In this document: one piece after another, positions 1,158 to 14,722 of the stretch | Layout: each line of letters starts with the position of its first letter | How positions within the stretch are numbered: position 1 is the first letter of the stretch | NCBI GenBank assembly: GCA_017437005.1 | Contig: JAFSBZ010000020.1 | Coordinates: forward strand, 1 to 61,282 | Reading direction: 5' to 3' | Origin: Clostridia bacterium | Lineage (GTDB): Bacteria > Bacillota > Clostridia > Oscillospirales > Acutalibacteraceae | Length of the DNA: 61,282 nt | Position numbers and translations under genes: made by a program | Notes under the pieces: generated by a model | Told to the model about the DNA's origin: nothing | What the model saw: the letters and a program-made list of their open reading frames with translations, nothing else | The model's database searches: none

Positions 1158-2567
1158 TTAATTTTCACTTAAATATTCATCAATTGCTTTAGCAGCTACT
1201 TTACCGGCGCCCATAGCTGATATTACTGTTGCGGCGCCTGTTACTGCGTCACCGCCCGCATAAACGCCTTCGCGTGAGGTTAGTCCATCCTCGGTAACAA
1301 TTATGCCGCCGCGACTATTTACTTCAAGTCCATCGGTTGTATTCTTTATAAGTGGGTTAGGGGATGTACCTATTGAAATAATCACAGTATCAACATCTAA
1401 AACAAATTCGGAATCGGGTATTTCAATCGGTCTGCGGCGACCTTTTTCATCCGGTTCGCCAAGCTGCATTTTTATACACTTAATTCCTGTTACAAATCCA
1501 TTTTTCTCGTCACGTGGATTATTTGGGTTGCTATAACCTAAAATCTCAACAGGATTACAAAGCAGTTTAAAATCTATGCCTTCATCAACGGCGTGTTCAA
1601 CCTCTTCGTTACGGGCCGGAAGCTCGGCAAGGGAACGTCTATATACAATATATACCTTTTCGGCACCGAGTCGTAAAGCAGTACGCGCGGCATCCATTGC
1701 AACGTTACCGCCACCTACAACAGCCACCTTGCCGCCCTTCATAATGGGAGTAGAGGGGTTGCCGTAATAAGCCTTCATAAGATTGCTACGCGTCAAAAAC
1801 TCATTTGCCGAGTAAACACCCTTTAGACTCTCGCCAGGTATACCCATAAAGTTTGGTAGTCCTGCGCCCGAACCTATAAATACAGCCTCGTATCCCATAT
1901 TAAATAGCTCGTCTATGGTAAGTGTTTTACCGATAACTACGTTTGTTTGTATATCAACACCAAGTTGCTTTAGGGTATCAACCTCTTTAGCAACAATTGA
2001 TTTTGGTAGTCGAAATTCAGGTATACCGTAAACCAGCACACCGCCCGCGGTATGTAACGCTTCAAAAACAGTAACCTCATATCCCGCTTTTGCAAGGTCA
2101 CCTGCGCAAGTTAAACCTGAAGGACCTGAGCCTACAACTGCAACCTTATGTCCATTGCTTTGCGGCTTGTTTGGTATTTCCTTTGAATTTTCGTTATGCC
2201 AATCGGCAACAAAACGTTCAAGTCTGCCAATACCTACAGGCTCTAATTTAATGCCCAGTGTACATTTGCTTTCGCACTGGGTTTCTTGTGGGCAGACTCT
2301 ACCGCAAACAGCAGGCAGGGAAGACGAAAGCGAAATAATGTTATATGCCTCTTCAAAATTACCGTCCTTTATTTTTGAAATAAAGTTTGGTATATCTATG
2401 TTTACAGGGCAACCGCTAACACAGGGCTTATTTTTGCAGTTTAAGCAACGCTCAGCCTCAGCAATAGCAATTTCCTGCGTATAGCCTAATGCAACCTCGT
2501 TAAAGTTGTTTGCTCTAACGCTGGGAGTTTGTGTAGGCATATCGTGTTTTTTAGGATTTATAGCCAT
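1158..2567 (-). CDS. nfnB: NADH-dependent ferredoxin:NADP+ oxidoreductase, large subunit NfnB (GltD-like)
   Basis: Flavoprotein of the NADPH-dependent glutamate synthase small-subunit family, 469 residues. Two N-terminal cysteine groups for 4Fe-4S clusters are visible (C41, C44, C49, C53 and C88, C92, C98, C102), followed by an FAD-binding GSGPSG at 146-151 and an NADPH-binding GGGNVA around 284-289, ending in the usual GGDAVTGAATVISAMGAG motif. The gene sits 9 bp downstream of a ferredoxin-NADP reductase-like subunit gene, and no glutamate synthase large subunit is nearby. That pairing is the hallmark of NfnAB, the cytoplasmic electron-bifurcating enzyme that makes NADPH from NADH plus reduced ferredoxin. 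Automatic annotation would often call it gltA or gltD. The function is inferred from family and gene pairing. Confidence 0.85.
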   Translation of the reverse strand: MAINPKKHDMPTQTPSVRANNFNEVALGYTQEIAIAEAERCLNCKNKPCVSGCPVNIDIPNFISKIKDGNFEEAYNIISLSSSLPAVCGRVCPQETQCESKCTLGIKLEPVGIGRLERFVADWHNENSKEIPNKPQSNGHKVAVVGSGPSGLTCAGDLAKAGYEVTVFEALHTAGGVLVYGIPEFRLPKSIVAKEVDTLKQLGVDIQTNVVIGKTLTIDELFNMGYEAVFIGSGAGLPNFMGIPGESLKGVYSANEFLTRSNLMKAYYGNPSTPIMKGGKVAVVGGGNVAMDAARTALRLGAEKVYIVYRRSLAELPARNEEVEHAVDEGIDFKLLCNPVEILGYSNPNNPRDEKNGFVTGIKCIKMQLGEPDEKGRRRPIEIPDSEFVLDVDTVIISIGTSPNPLIKNTTDGLEVNSRGGIIVTEDGLTSREGVYAGGDAVTGAATVISAMGAGKVAAKAIDEYLSEN

Positions 2568-2576
2568 TTTATCACC

Positions 2577-3425
2577 TTATGCCTTTCTAAAAAGATTACA
2601 AGAATCTTTATAAGCGTGATGTTCAAAGTCAGAATACATACGACTGCGTGACATTGCTTCGTCAAAATCTACCTGATATCCGTCAAAATCAGGACCATCA
2701 ACACAAGCGAATTTTGTAACACGTTTGCCGTCAATATTGAGGGTTAGTCGACAACCACCGCACATACCTGTACCATCAATCATAATGGGATTCATGGATA
2801 CTGTTACAGGTGTGCCGTAAGGGCGCGCAGCTTCAACAACAAACTTCATCATAATAAGTGGACCAATGGTGATTATCATATCAAACTGTTCGCCGTTTGA
2901 TAGCATTTCTGTAAGTGGCACACAAACATTTCCTTCGCGACCGTAAGAGCCATCATCGGTCATAATATATAACTTGTCGCTACAAGCATTAAACTCGTTT
3001 TCAAGTATTACTAAATCTTTATTTCTAAAACCGATTATACTTGTAACATCGGCGCCTTGATTGTGCAAAGCTTCTGCTATGGGCATAGCAATTGCGCAAC
3101 CAACACCACCGCCGATAATACATACCTTTTTAAGACCGTCAATATGTGTAGGTTCGCCCAAAGGACCGACAAAGTCTTCAATAAATTCGCCCACGTTTTT
3201 ATGATTTAATTTATTGGTTGTAGCACCCACTATTTGAAAAATGATTTTAACGGTGCCGTTTTCTTTATTAATACCTGCAACTGTAAGTGGAATACGCTCG
3301 CCATCTTGGTCAACACGTAATATAATGAATTGACCAGGTTGAGCCTTATTAGCAACAAGAGGAGCGTGTATTTCCATTTGTGTTACAGTAGGGTTTAATT
3401 CTATTTTAGTAATAATTTTGTACAT
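2577..3425 (-). CDS. nfnA: NADH-dependent ferredoxin:NADP+ oxidoreductase, small subunit NfnA
   Basis: A 282-residue protein of the ferredoxin-NADP reductase/dihydroorotate dehydrogenase electron-transfer (PyrK, sulfide dehydrogenase beta) family. It shows an FAD-binding RIPLT at 44-48, a nucleotide-binding GGGVGCAIAMP at 105-115, and a C-terminal 2Fe-2S region with C222, C225 and C241 inside MCGGCRLTLN and KFACVDGPDFDG. Family length is about 280. It is the first gene of the nfnAB pair and lies behind its own good promoter. In the known enzyme this subunit carries the NAD(H) site and passes electrons to the bifurcating FAD of NfnB. PyrK is the main alternative, but no pyrD is adjacent. Confidence 0.85.
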   Translation of the reverse strand: MYKIITKIELNPTVTQMEIHAPLVANKAQPGQFIILRVDQDGERIPLTVAGINKENGTVKIIFQIVGATTNKLNHKNVGEFIEDFVGPLGEPTHIDGLKKVCIIGGGVGCAIAMPIAEALHNQGADVTSIIGFRNKDLVILENEFNACSDKLYIMTDDGSYGREGNVCVPLTEMLSNGEQFDMIITIGPLIMMKFVVEAARPYGTPVTVSMNPIMIDGTGMCGGCRLTLNIDGKRVTKFACVDGPDFDGYQVDFDEAMSRSRMYSDFEHHAYKDSCNLFRKA

Positions 3426-5425: not shown

Positions 5426-6252
5426 ACAACAACAGCCTCCTCGTCATCACTAAATCTGTTCATTATAAGCGTGCATATAAGTATAAGGATCATAAGAATA
5501 AGCGATAAGGTTGATGCAATGTTATAATAGTGAGGTCCTGTGTTAAAAAGATATTCAATAGCATCACCAATAAGCATATCTTTATTGCCGCCAAGCTTTT
5601 GTGATATATAGAATGTACTTACAGACGGTACAAACACCATCGTAATGCCTGATATTACACCTGGAAGGGAAAGTGGCATTATAACTCGACGTATACGTGA
5701 AAGGCTATTAGAACCCAAGTCGCTTGCGGCTTCGAGTAAGGAATTATCAATTTTTGACATTGCGGTATAAATAGGCAATATCATATATGGAATAAAATCG
5801 TATACCATACCTAAAATTACCGCTCCGGGTGTATTAATAAGCTGTAATCTTCCTATACCCAAAAAATCTAAAAACTTATTTATAAGACCTGTGTTAGCTA
5901 AAATTGTTATCCACGAATATGTACGTATTAGAAAATTCATCCACATAGGAAGCATAATAAGCATCATAATCATTCGCTGACTTGATATTTTAAGCTTGGT
6001 CATATAATATGCCATAGGATAGGATAGCAGTAAGGTTATAATTGTTGCAATAATTGCATAAAAAATTGAAAGGCCAAAGGCTTTTTTAAATCTACCAATC
6101 TGCGTAAAATTTTCAAGAGAAAAAACTCCGTTTGCATCGGTAAAAGCAAAATATGCCATTATAAGCAGCGGCACAATAATAAAAATTGCCGCCCAAACAA
6201 TATATGGTGCCGCAACAACGCGACTTCCAAAACTTTTTTTATTCATCGTCAT
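5422..6252 (-). CDS. potB: Spermidine/putrescine ABC transporter permease PotB
   Basis: Membrane permease of 276 residues with about six transmembrane spans and the EAA loop [21 protein letters not shown]. The N-terminal span and the [13 protein letters not shown] segment are typical of PotB. Its first ATG overlaps the 3' end of potA by 14 bases; a second ATG two codons later (6246) could equally be used. With PotC it forms the membrane channel of the polyamine importer. Confidence 0.92.
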
Positions 6253-7369
6253 CCTCCGGCTCTATGTCTGAAAGATGATCCATTTCTTCACTGTATGTAC
6301 TATAGTCGCCGTAAAGACCTGAGTATTCTGACTTTTTCATAATATGAATAGCATCAGGTTCGATATATAGACCTACATTGTCACCGACAAAACATTCATC
6401 GGTTGTTTGTATCATCCATTTGAAACCGCCGATGTCTACAATTATTTCGTAGTGAACACCTAAAAAGTCAACCGATGTTACAGTGCCCTTAAGCATACCC
6501 TTATCAACAGATACTATATCAACATCTTCAGGACGAACAACAACATCAACGCTTTCGTTTTCATCAAAGCCTTTATCAAGACAATCAAATATATGTCCTG
6601 AAAATTCGGCTACATAGTCTTTTTTCATAACACCGTCAAGAATATTTGATTCGCCAATAAAATCGGCTACAAAGGCATTTTGTGGCTCGTTATAAATATC
6701 TTGCGGGGTACCTATTTGTTGAATTTTACCTTTATTCATTACAACAACGCGATCTGACATTGTAAGAGCTTCTTCTTGATCGTGGGTAACAAAAACAAAG
6801 GTTATACCAAGCTGTCGTTGTATACGACGAAGTTCTTTTTGCATATCCTTGCGAAGCTTTAAATCAAGTGCAGCTAAAGGTTCGTCAAGTAATAACACCT
6901 TTGGTTTGTTTGCAATCGCACGCGCGATTGCAACACGTTGTTGTTGACCACCCGAGAGGGTAGATATGCTTCGTTTTTCAAATCCATCAAGATTAACAAG
7001 GTGCAACATATCGGTTACAATATCTTTAATTTCATTTTCCTTTAATTTTTTTACACGCAAACCAAACGCAACGTTTTCGTAAACATTTAAATGAGGAAAA
7101 AGCGCATAACGCTGAAAAATGGTGTTAACCTGACGTTTGTACGACGGCACACCATTTATTATTTTGTCCTCAAAAACAACTTCGCCACAATCGGCATCTA
7201 AAAAACCACCGATTATTCGTAGTGTTGTAGTTTTTCCACAACCCGAAGGTCCTAACAAAGTAATAAATTCTTTGTCATGGATTGAAAGATTTAATCCATC
7301 AAGAACCTTTTCTTCCCCAAACGAAACAAATATGTCTTTAAGCTCAATTATATTTTTTTGGTTTTCCAT
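6239..7369 (-). CDS. potA: Spermidine/putrescine ABC transporter ATPase PotA
   Basis: ATP-hydrolysing subunit of the polyamine importer, 376 residues. It has Walker [11 protein letters not shown] near residues 41-50, a Q-loop ([20 protein letters not shown]), signature [14 protein letters not shown], Walker [12 protein letters not shown] and the H-loop [10 protein letters not shown]-terminal TOBE-like region (about 250-350) is followed by a very acidic tail ending EPEDDDE. It is the first gene of potABCD. The ribosome site, AAAGGGGG at 7380-7387, is about 10 bases from the ATG and is complementary to an upstream stretch of the leader, which suggests control of translation (see findings). Confidence 0.93.
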
Positions 7370-7379
7370 TTAACCACAT

Positions 7380-7580
7380 CCCCCTTTGTCAAACACCACA
7401 AGTGTCGACAGTAGTAAAATTACGGAAAATACCGTATTACCCCTGCGCGATACCCCAGCCGTTTGTTTGTATGCCCTGACAAAGGGTTTTTCATAGCTCT
7501 ACAACAATTAGTGAACTACGGCATACATTAGTACCGACCGTCTTTCTACACAGATGCGTTAAATTAATATTTATTTATAT
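7380..7580 (-). promoter_or_regulatory. Structured 5' leader of potA, candidate cis-regulatory RNA
   Basis: About 200 bases of relatively GC-rich sequence precede potA between AT-rich flanks. In minus-strand mRNA order there is an 8-bp helix (7520-7527 with 7468-7475) enclosing a 6-bp hairpin (UAGUUC/GAGCUA) and a CCCUUUGUCA segment (7477-7486). That segment is perfectly complementary, over 10 bases, to UGACAAAGGG at 7382-7391, which overlaps the potA ribosome binding site. A competing hairpin (7388-7409) uses part of the same RBS-proximal strand. It does not match any riboswitch class I can recall by motif (lysine, SAM, T-box, M-box, purine, glycine, guanidine). A TATAAT lies at 7587-7592 on the minus strand, but no well-spaced -35 is evident. 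Confidence 0.55.
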
Positions 7581-7592
7581 ATTAACATTATA

Positions 7593-7736
7593 AAGATAAG
7601 GCTAAATACTTAAAAAGTCAAGCAAAATTTACAAAAAATGTTGATTTTACAATGTTTAAATAATGTATTTTTTTATTAAACTTGTTTTTGCTTTGATTTT
7701 CTTTAAAATACTCCTCAAATCTCAATTTTTTATAAA
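7593..7736. other. AT-rich intergenic stretch, no gene seen
   Basis: Very AT-rich DNA between the P-type ATPase terminator and the potA leader. Only short unconvincing open frames occur. It probably holds the potA promoter; nothing else was recognised. Confidence 0.6.
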
Positions 7737-7766
7737 AAAACGTTGCTCTATCGAGAGCAACGTTTT
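7734..7766 (-). terminator. Terminator overlapping the 3' end of the P-type ATPase gene
   Basis: Hairpin with a 13-bp stem counting A-T pairs (7737-7749 with 7754-7766) and a 4-base loop, followed on the minus strand by seven U residues. The last codons (Lys-Arg-Cys-Ser-Arg) and the TAG stop (7748-7750) lie inside the hairpin. Confidence 0.85.
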
Positions 7767-10354
7767 GGATTGGAAAATATTCGTTTTGCAATTTCACGAC
7801 TGAATAATTTTTTGACTTCACAAACAGGGATTATTGCAATTGATAATAAAAGACAAATTATAAATTGACCAAATTTAAGAACGTCAAGTCCAAACACAAA
7901 GCCTGCAGGTGTGATAACCAAGAAAATCGTAATAATTAAAACAAGTAATGATGTAAGATTCATAAATTTGTTTTGCTTAAAATCTGCTCTAATTAAAGAA
8001 TCGTGAGTCTTTAGATTATATGAATGGATAATTTGTACCATTGTAAGTGTTGCAAAAGCCATTGTTACACCACCGATTGCAAAGGCAATAAGTGTTAGCA
8101 CAGCAACCGTGATTGCATCACAAGCAATGTTAATTATTGCACCTTTGTTAAAAAGATGACCCGAAAGCGCAATTGGCTTTTTGCGCATAACATCTATCTC
8201 TGACCTTTCGGTTGTAAGGGATATAACTGATGTGCAGTCGGTAAGTAAATTTATCCAAAGCAACTGTACAGCCGCAAGTGGAGGCATACCAAAAATAAGC
8301 ATACCAAAAATAAAGGCAAGTATTTCACCAAAATTACAACCCAAAAGATACGAAACAGCCTTTTTTACGTTTTCAAAAAGACCGCGACTTTCTTTTATTG
8401 CATTAACAACCGACATAAATTTTTTGTCTTTAATTATTACGTCGGAATTTCCTCTTGCAATATCAGTTCCGTAAGTACCAACAGAGCAGCCTATGTCAGC
8501 GAGGGTTAGTGCATCGGCATCCTCGGTGCCGCTTCCTGTTACAGCAACTATTTTACCTGTTTTTTGCCAAGTAGTTATAATTCGTATTTTATCTTCGGGA
8601 GTAATACGTGCGAATACTTTATATTTTGATATAATGTTGTAAAGTTCTTCGTCACTAAGCTTTGCAAGTTCTGAACCGGTTATAGCATCTGAATCGTCTT
8701 GTAAAATACCAATTCGTTTTGCAATAGTTTTTGCCGTATCAATATTATCGCCTGTTAACATAACCGTATTAATTCCGGCAAGCTTGCAAGCGGAAATTGC
8801 TTCTACAGTATCTGATTGAGGTGGGTCATATAATCCCAATAAACCAACAAAGGTTAAATCACGTTCAATTTCATCAGGATCGGGACTTGAAGGTGTTTCA
8901 TCAAGCTTTTTCATCGCGATACAAATAACTCGATATGAATCGTTGGTTAGCTTTTTGTAAATTTCAAAAACAGCATCTTTGTTTGAAAGTTTGCATTTTT
9001 CAAGCAAAGATTCAGGTGCACCTTTAATAATAGCAACGGGTTTGCCGCCAATCATATTAATGCTTGTCATTGTTTTTCTAAAGCTATCAAACGGTATTTC
9101 GGCCAAACGAGGTAATATATTGCTTATATCAACTCTTGACATATTGGTAAATTGTATGCAAGCTTTTTCAATAGCATCTTCTGTTGAGTCGTTTTGAAGC
9201 ATTGAACACGAAACTGCAAGCTGCAATACTGATACACTTTTTTCAGGAATATTATCGCTTGAAATAGAGGAGAGATTTTCGCCGTCATAAATATATTCAA
9301 CGGTCATATTATTTTTTGTAAGAATACCGGTTTTGTCCACACAAAAAATTTCGGTTTTTCCAAGTAATTCAAGCGCTTTAATATTTTTGATTATAACGTT
9401 ATCGTTTATCATTCGCTGAATACCAAGCGCAATTACTATGGTTGAAATTGCGGGTAAACTTTCAGGCATTGCGGATATACCCAATGCTACTGCATTAACA
9501 AGAGCCGAAACTGTAACACTTGCAAATGGCTCAGTTGCATTAAAGTTTTGAACAAGGCCTATAAAAAATGCAATCGTACAGGCAAAAAATATTGCTATGT
9601 TTATAATTTTTCCGCTTTTGTTAAGAGATTCGGTAATAGGCAGGGTATCAGATTTGATTTGTCGGCTTATGTCAGTAATTTTACCAATCTCGGTATTAAG
9701 AGCCGTTTCTACAACAACGGCAGTTGCACTTCCGTGAATTACACTTGAGCCCGAGAAAACCATATTTTTTCTTTCGGGTGTGGGTGTAATATCCTCAAGA
9801 ATAACGTTTGCGTCTTTTTCAACAGGAATTATATCTCCCGATAGTAAACACTCATTGCAACGCAGTGCATCGGCGGTTATAAGTCGGGCATCGGCAGTTA
9901 TATAATCGCCTTCTTTTAATAAGATAATGTCACCGGGAACCAAAAGATCAGAAGGAATTAATTGTTTTTTGCCATCACGTAAAACATCAACTTTTATGTT
10001 TGTGGCATTTTCAATTTCATCTAAAGCTTCATCGCATTTGTGTAAATGAAAAGCGCTTATAAAGGCATTGAGTATAACTATTGCAATTATAAGTATTGGG
10101 AAATAAAAATCACTTTTTTGATATATTATACCAATGACTAAGGATAAGATAGCAACAATTATTAAAAATATTACTACCTTATTTTTGAGCTGTGAAACAA
10201 AACGAGAAAAAAGGCTGGTCTTGTCACCAACGGCAGTTGAGTTTTTTCCATAAGTATCAATTCTTTCAGAAACGTCAGTTGCCCATAAACCGTTTTTTGT
10301 ATCGGTTTTTAACTCGTTTAATACGTTTTCAACGGGGGAACTATGCCAAATCAT
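7748..10354 (-). CDS. P-type cation ATPase (Ca2+ type) with degenerate catalytic motifs
   Basis: An 868-residue membrane protein with the whole layout of a type II (SERCA/PMR1-like) P-type ATPase: N-terminal cation_ATPase_N domain, actuator domain, M4 PESLPA, phosphorylation loop, nucleotide-binding KGAPE, hinge MLTGDNIDTAKTIAK and six C-terminal spans. Key motifs depart from consensus. The phosphorylation site reads DKTGILT (Asp340 kept, usual DKTGTLT), the actuator TGES is SGDI (174 is Asp instead of Glu), and TGDGVNDAPAL is TGSGTEDADAL (first Asp is Ser608). The frame is intact over its full length, so it is not an obvious pseudogene. It may be a slow or regulated pump or a non-transporting paralogue. 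It lies 36 bp downstream of glyA, perhaps cotranscribed. Confidence 0.8.
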   Translation of the reverse strand: MIWHSSPVENVLNELKTDTKNGLWATDVSERIDTYGKNSTAVGDKTSLFSRFVSQLKNKVVIFLIIVAILSLVIGIIYQKSDFYFPILIIAIVILNAFISAFHLHKCDEALDEIENATNIKVDVLRDGKKQLIPSDLLVPGDIILLKEGDYITADARLITADALRCNECLLSGDIIPVEKDANVILEDITPTPERKNMVFSGSSVIHGSATAVVVETALNTEIGKITDISRQIKSDTLPITESLNKSGKIINIAIFFACTIAFFIGLVQNFNATEPFASVTVSALVNAVALGISAMPESLPAISTIVIALGIQRMINDNVIIKNIKALELLGKTEIFCVDKTGILTKNNMTVEYIYDGENLSSISSDNIPEKSVSVLQLAVSCSMLQNDSTEDAIEKACIQFTNMSRVDISNILPRLAEIPFDSFRKTMTSINMIGGKPVAIIKGAPESLLEKCKLSNKDAVFEIYKKLTNDSYRVICIAMKKLDETPSSPDPDEIERDLTFVGLLGLYDPPQSDTVEAISACKLAGINTVMLTGDNIDTAKTIAKRIGILQDDSDAITGSELAKLSDEELYNIISKYKVFARITPEDKIRIITTWQKTGKIVAVTGSGTEDADALTLADIGCSVGTYGTDIARGNSDVIIKDKKFMSVVNAIKESRGLFENVKKAVSYLLGCNFGEILAFIFGMLIFGMPPLAAVQLLWINLLTDCTSVISLTTERSEIDVMRKKPIALSGHLFNKGAIINIACDAITVAVLTLIAFAIGGVTMAFATLTMVQIIHSYNLKTHDSLIRADFKQNKFMNLTSLLVLIITIFLVITPAGFVFGLDVLKFGQFIICLLLSIAIIPVCEVKKLFSREIAKRIFSNPKRCSR

Positions 10355-14517: not shown

Positions 14518-14554
14518 CCGAAAACAAAGTACAATTTATACATATCAATTTCAG

Positions 14555-14715
14555 AATGAATAGCACTCCGCATTTTATGCGACAGCAAAACAGATGTTAT
14601 CTGAGTTGCCAGCTAAGTGTATGCCACAACACTCGCTTCGGCATTAGCCCCTTTTTCGTACGGCTTTGGCAACCATATTTGTACGATACTCTTGACATAA
14701 TGCGCCTCTATCATT
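14555..14715 (-). promoter_or_regulatory. Lysine riboswitch (L-box) aptamer
   Basis: Read on the minus strand, the conserved L-box blocks appear in order: GAUAGAGGCGC at the 5' side of P1, AAGAGUA, AAAGGGGCUAAUGCCGAAG, UUAGCUGGC, and GGAGUGCUAUU closing P1. The P1 strands (AAUGAUAG and CUAUUCAUU) pair with one bulge. Its position before dapA-ddh and the downstream terminator fit lysine-induced transcription termination. Confidence 0.95.
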
Positions 14716-14722
14716 GAGTGAG

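Follow-up and report, generated by a model that had tools for sequence, protein, structure and literature searches.

The pot operon and the extent of its leader

The window, i.e. the whole stretch of DNA analysed, is 61,282 nucleotides long and comes from a Clostridia bacterium of the Acutalibacteraceae. Its minus strand carries the genes potA (6239-7369), potB (6252-5422), potC (5425-4622) and potD (4629-3529). PotA passed two polyamine-transporter models at their curated cut-offs (TIGR01187, 363.8 vs 355.6; NF043075, 558.2 vs 550). The best NCBIfam match was a spermidine/putrescine transporter permease for both potB and potC, and PotD for potD, each below the curated cut-off. PotD also matched the solved PotD-type chains 4eqb (E 8e-62) and 1pot (E 9.2e-46). 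Import may be the main spermidine source of this organism, because neither spermidine synthase (PF01564) nor AdoMet decarboxylase (PF02675) was matched in the window's genome, which is about 85% complete. The decarboxylase family PF01276 had one match in the same genome.

After potD, the minus strand encodes a gltA-type NADPH-dependent glutamate synthase small subunit and an FAD/NAD-binding subunit (1158-3425), a pair that we take to be Nfn-like. Elsewhere in the window, a lysine riboswitch (RF00168, 83.4 bits; 14553-14718, minus strand), an ordinary member of its known class, lies upstream of a gene at 14465-13578 that is dapA-like by its sequence.

A candidate promoter was located on the minus strand upstream of potA (7621-7593), with TTGACT at 7621-7616, a 17 nt spacer and TATCTT at 7598-7593. 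It scores 9 of 12 matches, and since the region gives 3 such sites vs 2.3 in shuffled sequences, the candidate is weak when taken alone. Among homologous leaders, TTGAC-N15..20-TANNNT was found upstream of GCATC in 88 of 135, compared with 1.3 expected from first-order resampling. Transcription would start at about 7586. Inspection by eye also showed a minus-strand hairpin with seven T after it (7734-7762), located between the potA promoter and the P-type ATPase gene (10354-7748). The automated terminator scan did not list it; it is probably a terminator by which the pot operon is isolated.

The potA leader is a conserved RNA on the minus strand, at 7563-7367. Comparison of homologues placed the start of the conserved element at 7563 and followed it into the potA start codon; the preceding segment, from about 7586 to 7564, would be transcribed and lacks conservation. 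The leader described in the earlier note is thus real, but its conserved 5′ end is 7563 rather than 7592 and its 3′ end lies in the start codon. Its G+C content is 43%, compared with 23-29% in the 200-base windows beside it (7500 to 7899) and 34-42% in windows over potA (6500 to 7399), so that the GC-richer island reported previously stands out against intergenic DNA, though less so against potA. Comparison with shuffled sequence gave a fold z-score of -2.67, with 3 of 200 shuffles equally stable, and confirmed that the structure of the leader is above chance level.

Homologues and their position before potA

Homologues were collected with blastn and with three successive covariance models; all counts include the window's own genome. 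With the leader as query, blastn matched 24 of 60 genomes, one match (L024) being a chance hit inside a coding sequence. Of 70 genomes from the genus, 48 contained the element by the first model, built from 18 sequences, as did 5 of 394 genomes from the order. At the level of the family, which is probably Acutalibacteraceae, the second model found it in 84 of 398 genomes, representing 32 of 135 genera. With the third model, matches came from 18 of 295 order-level genomes, six of which belong to three other families, and from 8 of 341 genomes from the class, three of which fall outside the order. Scans of more than 40 genomes were run with stricter filters, by which weak matches were lost. A 21-letter core pattern searched over 84,980 genomes returned 94 stretches. 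Across the phylum an exact core pattern was present in 1 of 388 genomes, a member of the family; being exact, this pattern misses the window's own form and shows only that the core was unseen outside the class in that sample. Among named isolates, the element is carried by Caproiciproducens faecalis, C. galactitolivorans and Anaeromassilibacillus senegalensis, the last two being Acutalibacteraceae by taxonomy.

The position of the element is highly consistent. In the family, outside the genus, all 79 of 79 loci lie before potA on the same strand, with the potA start no more than 11 nt from the end of the match, save for three partial matches where it is 44, 92 and 93 nt further on. In the 49-row set A2 potA begins at 0-12 nt in 48 rows; in the remaining row (L017) the contig ends just past the start codon. 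The six loci in other families and the three outside the order are likewise on the same strand before potA; counted by set of loci, potA was found behind 18/18, 16/16 and 3/3, these sets partly overlapping and the 16 coming partly from the same genomes. For 89 of the 94 core-pattern stretches a potA start lies 79-238 nt downstream; of the others, three are truncated by the sequence end yet bear the motif, and two (L158, L245) are unrelated chance matches. The 89/94 pattern matches and 79/79 family loci agree with the earlier placement of the leader in control of potABCD.

Among the genus genomes, 22 gave no match, and nine of these encode PotA at full length and with 79% identity or more. In leaders L268 and L270 a deletion has removed the middle of the motif but spared its ends, L276 and L287 retain little beyond AAAGGGGGAUGC, and in the other six full-length-PotA cases among the unmatched genus genomes no relic was found. 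The element is a dispensable, optional control, because relatives with full PotA have deletion relics or motif-less leaders.

Several loci depart from the common arrangement. An insert of 278 nt splits the potA leader of one species (L070; G077:C33, 2142-2419); its ends form inverted repeats of each other (GTGAGGCTGGCGAGTGTCAATACC, GGTATTGGCACTCGTCAGCCTC), and it resembles a small mobile element. The potA downstream of this insert is 93% identical to that of the window. Genome G068 has a second potA, whose leader (L066; G068:C64) bears another form of helix P5 (see below) and is identical over 211 nt to a leader from another genus (L083; G746), which suggests either horizontal transfer or a misplaced contig. 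Two leaders from outside the order (L266, L267) carry GCAUCUGUGCC upstream of potA, 167 and 205 nt before the P5 core, which suggests that the element is larger here and has an additional domain between P1 and P3.

The fold of the leader

The model drawn from homologues consists of a closing helix P1, helices P2, P3 and P4, a pseudoknot P5 and an accessory module with P6 and P7; all coordinates below refer to the minus strand. In P1, TTTAA-C-GCATC (7563-7553) pairs with GATGT-GG-TTAAA (7380-7369), the last base of which is the A of the potA start codon. In homologues P1 joins GCAUC and GAUGC and is lengthened by UUUAA/UUAAA or by AAA/UUU. The GCAUC/GAUGC pairs are 98-100% paired, while the outer pairs are 75-77% paired and covary, with 29 compensated events and 57 changes to or from the unpaired state on the PotA tree. 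The earlier structural description had found helices that are indeed there but had missed P1.

P2 joins CGGTCG (7540-7535) and CGGCTG (7461-7456), and both strands covary, with 77 compensated double changes. In homologues it occurs as CGGUCG/CGGCUG, GUAAUCAA/UUGAUUAC and UUAACCUA/UGGGUUAA, all still paired. P3, in which TGTATGCC (7527-7520) pairs with the likewise covarying GGCATACA (7475-7468), is the 8-bp helix seen in the single sequence, and 61 compensated double changes were counted for it. P4 is a hairpin of GTAGTTC (7519-7513) with GAGCTAT (7499-7493) and has 54 such changes; P2, P3 and P4 each vary freely in sequence between homologues and remain paired. The earlier note also spoke of an internal hairpin. 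Two are present, P4 (7519-7493) and TACGG/CCGTA (7436-7421), and which one was meant had not been specified.

P4 is followed by the joining segment GAAAAA (7492-7487), unpaired in the model, whose columns are invariant or nearly so in the 18-sequence set; a run of five A is present in 134 of 149 leaders. This segment is a candidate strand of a ligand pocket or triple helix. Next come the 5′ strand of P5, CCCTTTGTCA (7486-7477), and the accessory module (7456-7405), which comprises GGGGTATCG and the P6 stem-loop (7450-7443 with 7411-7405) with an inner hairpin (7440-7414). P6 covaries in the family set, unlike in the 18-sequence genus set, and the module is absent from part of the family; L068 and L069 lack both P6 and P7. 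P7, a hairpin of GTCGACAC and GTGTTTGAC at 7409-7388, is 87.7% paired where present and has 10 compensated double changes, but is not family-wide. The 3′ strand of P5, TGACAAAGGG (7391-7382), overlaps the potA Shine-Dalgarno sequence AAAGGGGG (7387-7380).

RNAalifold, which was run without pseudoknots, missed P5 and P2. A local CCC/GGG pairing that it proposed was not adopted, and from its pairing of GGU-UCG with CGA-ACU only the UCG/CGA part was kept, as the base of P6.

Covariation in homologous leaders

In an alignment of 46 diverse sequences 90.3% of the cells of the model were paired, and 446 cells carried double changes, compared with 142 (sd 11) in shuffles and 60-119 when the structure was slid along the alignment. 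In 49 sequences mostly from the genus there were 215 such cells vs 63 in shuffles and 29-55 in slid structures. The 18-sequence genus set contained no double changes in P5, P6 or P7.

Alignments A2-A5 had been fitted to the structure of the models, and for this reason an alignment-free strand swap was used in addition to slid controls. With 95 representatives, each 5′ strand paired better with its own 3′ strand than with those of other leaders for P3 (16.97 vs 12.94), P2 (17.09 vs 15.51) and P5 (26.09 vs 23.29), none of 5000 permutations being as high in any of the three, and for P1 (15.64 vs 14.88), with 2 of 5000 as high. The effect per leader is modest: the own partner ranked among the top 5% of its row for P3 in 39 of 95 leaders, for P2 in 14, for P5 in 40 and for P1 in 11. 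Since related sequences are not independent, changes were also counted by parsimony on a PotA tree of 46 sequences. This gave 286 compensated double changes, whereas slid partners gave 13-40. Switches into or out of the unpaired state numbered 192, compared with 358-516 for slid partners. Compensatory changes in homologues, on which the earlier note had staked its proposal in advance, are therefore present well above the slid controls. We conclude that the leader is almost certainly a conserved structured RNA.

Pseudoknot P5 and the potA ribosome site

The segment CCCTTTGTCA is perfectly complementary over 10 bases to TGACAAAGGG; by simple arithmetic, a perfect complement of one given 10-mer is expected about 2 times in 10,000 among some 190 positions. 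Both the complementarity and its location had been pointed out before, with the remark that a pseudoknot was possible as the anti-ribosome-site segment sits inside the loop of the 8-bp helix. The pairing is kept across the family, and P5 is a pseudoknot because CCCTTTGTCA lies in the P3 loop.

The core of P5 is almost invariant, with 97.4% of cells paired compared with 37-77% for slid controls. Double changes were found at 2 of 9 pairs, no more than in shuffles (1.8; 354/500), and the PotA tree has one double event. The only P5 count above shuffles is that of double-change cells (11 vs 3.1). Forms of the helix were counted in the 149 leaders that could be parsed among 169 unique ones; of the 20 others, 12 lack an intact motif and eight bear the motif but were missed by the search expression (one of these is interrupted). 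P5 appeared as UGCGG with CCGCA, or once UCGCA, in 101 leaders, as UGUUCA/UGAACA in 23 and as UGUC with GACA or GGCA in 22, while three had one outer mismatch. As independent double events are few, P5 draws its support mainly from its conservation, its position and the matching of its forms, and less from changes that recur.

P5 and P1 together span the Shine-Dalgarno sequence and reach the potA start codon. The calculated energy of this region says less. Under a nested energy model, opening the ribosome site of potA costs 7.3 kcal/mol in the window, and the same calculation gave 6.0, 7.8 and 6.5 kcal/mol at potC, potD and a third start. Over 32 of the 95 representatives the mean cost was 7.4 vs 4.9 kcal/mol in shuffles; costs as high as the native one occurred in 84 of 384 shuffles, and six of the 32 leaders fell below the mean of their own shuffles. 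Opening energy alone is therefore weak evidence for cover, because shuffles as well as potC and potD reach similar costs. The state with a masked ribosome site that the earlier note had envisaged has good support from sequence, and the leader very probably covers the ribosome site as an OFF state.

Open and closed folds

With the ribosome site held open, the fold predicted from sequence alone retains P2, P3, P4, P7 and the inner P6 hairpin and adds a helix of CUGUGU (7553-7548, sharing its C with P1) with GCGCAG (7448-7443), the latter being part of P6 in the closed fold. The 5′ CUGUG and the AUCG..CAG element occur both in 61 and neither in 80 of the 149 leaders, with eight discordant. Such co-occurrence is expected if the two act together, and shared descent contributes to it. 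The CUGUGU/GCGCAG helix is a possible alternative, suggested by the co-occurrence and the predicted open-site fold rather than by covariation.

The earlier note had proposed two mutually exclusive states, with a rival hairpin at 7388-7409 competing for the strand of P5. The hairpin is real, and is P7, but it overlaps P5 by only the four bases TGAC (7391-7388). P7 and P5 are thus partly exclusive; full exclusivity was dropped from the model, given this four-base overlap and the absence of P7 from part of the family. Between P5 and potA no hairpin with a U-run was found, and the one weak minus-strand site given by the terminator scan is the P6 hairpin at 7436-7421.

Proposed mechanism and alternative explanations

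The reading of the region as a riboswitch-like leader is borne out on comparison by covariation, consistent association with potA and cover of the ribosome site. In the mechanism that we propose, the leader would act in cis as an RNA switch that turns off translation of potABCD. A small molecule would be bound in an H-type pseudoknot made up of P3, P4, the GAAAAA strand and P5. With the ligand bound, P5 and P1 would be stable and the ribosome could not land; without it P5 would open, P2, P3, P4 and P7 could stay, and potA would be translated. In the accessory module, GCGCAG might exchange strands, pairing with the 3′ CUGU (P6) in the closed state and with the 5′ CUGUGU in the open one, which would couple ligand binding to translation of the importer. 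The likeliest ligand would be a polyamine, spermidine or putrescine, signalling that the importer is no longer needed. This assignment is drawn from the gene controlled, and is strengthened because every context-checked match of the models and 89 of 94 pattern matches precede potA; the feedback logic follows from the PotD-type binding protein and the unmatched PF01564 and PF02675 in the window's genome.

These steps differ in strength. The leader probably binds a small molecule directly. Taken with all its steps together, a translational OFF riboswitch for potABCD with a polyamine ligand is the reading that we favour on balance, with considerable reserve. More tentative is the full picture of a new Clostridia class of polyamine riboswitches with a large pseudoknot aptamer, a P5 and P1 clamp on the ribosome site and start codon, and a strand-exchanging accessory module.

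Other explanations of the same fold were weighed. A regulatory protein could stabilise or open the pseudoknot, as in autoregulated operons, and the motif is indeed seen at one operon only, which is common for autoregulatory leaders. However, a pseudoknot within a large fold, together with an unpaired strand that hardly varies, is what metabolite aptamers typically show, and no candidate protein is known, so that we regard a protein-binding leader as unlikely. A riboswitch of the same build might instead respond to arginine, ornithine, agmatine, SAM or an ion. The sequence cannot reveal the ligand, and no polyamine biosynthesis gene, which a polyamine class might be expected to show, was seen behind the motif among the loci checked. 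Yet the motif is linked to potABCD only, and PotA and PotD match polyamine transporter families; a non-polyamine ligand is, we think, also rather improbable. Less likely again is a leader with no dedicated pocket, in which polyamines or magnesium would stabilise the pseudoknot unspecifically or the fold would serve as a fixed or temperature-sensitive brake on translation. Polyamines bind RNA generally, as stated in the consulted part of PMC10853860, and they would be expected to affect a pseudoknot lying over the ribosome site. Nevertheless, the near-invariant joining strand is conserved beyond the needs of a brake, and CUGUG and AUCG..CAG are present or absent together.

An upstream open reading frame was considered as well, starting at the AUG or GUG before AAAAACCC (M/V-K-N-P-L) and acting by polyamine-dependent ribosome stalling. 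Stalling of this kind is described for speFL and proposed for odc1, and polyamine genes elsewhere use such frames according to the consulted sections of PMC8632094 and PMC10319736. In the window ATGAAAAACCCTTTG opens a frame of 24 codons (7494-7420), and ATG or GTG stands at this place in 96 of 149 leaders and TTG in one. The other 52 have no start codon there (GCG in 30); where one is present, the resulting frames would vary between 8 and 56 codons in length. The frame is also broken by a GUC/GUUC indel and by A-runs of differing length, and the candidate start codon belongs to helix P4. With a start codon in 97 of 149 leaders and lengths of this range, the frame was rejected as a very improbable explanation.

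Should the leader be the polyamine riboswitch that we favour, it would represent a polyamine-sensing fold placed before an uptake operon and unrelated to the rare SAM-I variant discussed below. Its occurrence in named isolates of Caproiciproducens and Anaeromassilibacillus makes binding directly testable. Polyamines are compounds exchanged between microbes and their host, and a polyamine-sensing leader would show how these gut bacteria limit polyamine uptake.

Comparison with known systems

Rfam 15 at its gathering score gave no match to the leader in the window or at 14 homologous loci, in line with the earlier view, for which this check had been named beforehand, that the leader does not resemble a familiar riboswitch class. 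At E up to 10 there were two matches (7703-7760), both outside the element and far below the gathering score. No description of the potA leader was found in the literature searched, where an unlabelled entry in supplementary lists of candidates is possible; the main texts of PMC11109978 and PMC8040213 mention neither potA nor polyamine. Riboswitches for polyamines have long been expected, given the strong binding of these compounds to RNA (PMC10853860, consulted in part). The literature on them yielded one natural class, the SAM-I variant, and otherwise weak or different elements.

Among the latter, the potC motif (RF01751) is likewise tied to a polyamine-transport gene; it is listed as 'marine only' in the table of PMC2864571, the part of that paper used here, and cmscan gives no match of it to the leader. 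The potE motif and the odc1 element are also candidate regulators of polyamine genes. According to the excerpts of PMC8632094 consulted, the former is known from Veillonella and environmental samples, with weak covariation and a distance of about 200 nt from the gene, and the latter is based on an upstream open reading frame. For the 5′ RNA of Borrelia potB, excess spermidine lowers potAB expression, partly after transcription start; control there is also exerted at promoter level. The Borrelia element is located within the coding region of potB, and the consulted portion of PMC10319736 describes no conserved leader fold.

In architecture, the leader resembles the preQ1 classes and the SAM-II type. 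These are H-type pseudoknots whose 3′ strand is or overlaps the Shine-Dalgarno sequence and which have an A-rich joining strand; the potA leader likewise has a pseudoknot 3′ strand on the Shine-Dalgarno sequence and an A-rich joining strand. It differs from them in being larger, in a P1 that reaches the start codon, in its sequence and in the gene behind it.

In proposed function, the closest system is the spermidine riboswitch, which in the consulted part of PMC10853860 is a terminator-based variant of SAM-I placed before biosynthesis genes. SAM-I itself gave no match to the leader in the window and the 14 homologous loci; a variant could score below the cut-off, and the fold differs. Like the potA leader, the spermidine riboswitch is a bacterial 5′ leader, and polyamine sensing with OFF logic is what we propose here. 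That riboswitch, however, has a SAM-I fold and a terminator, whereas the potA leader has a ribosome-site pseudoknot before an importer and no terminator.
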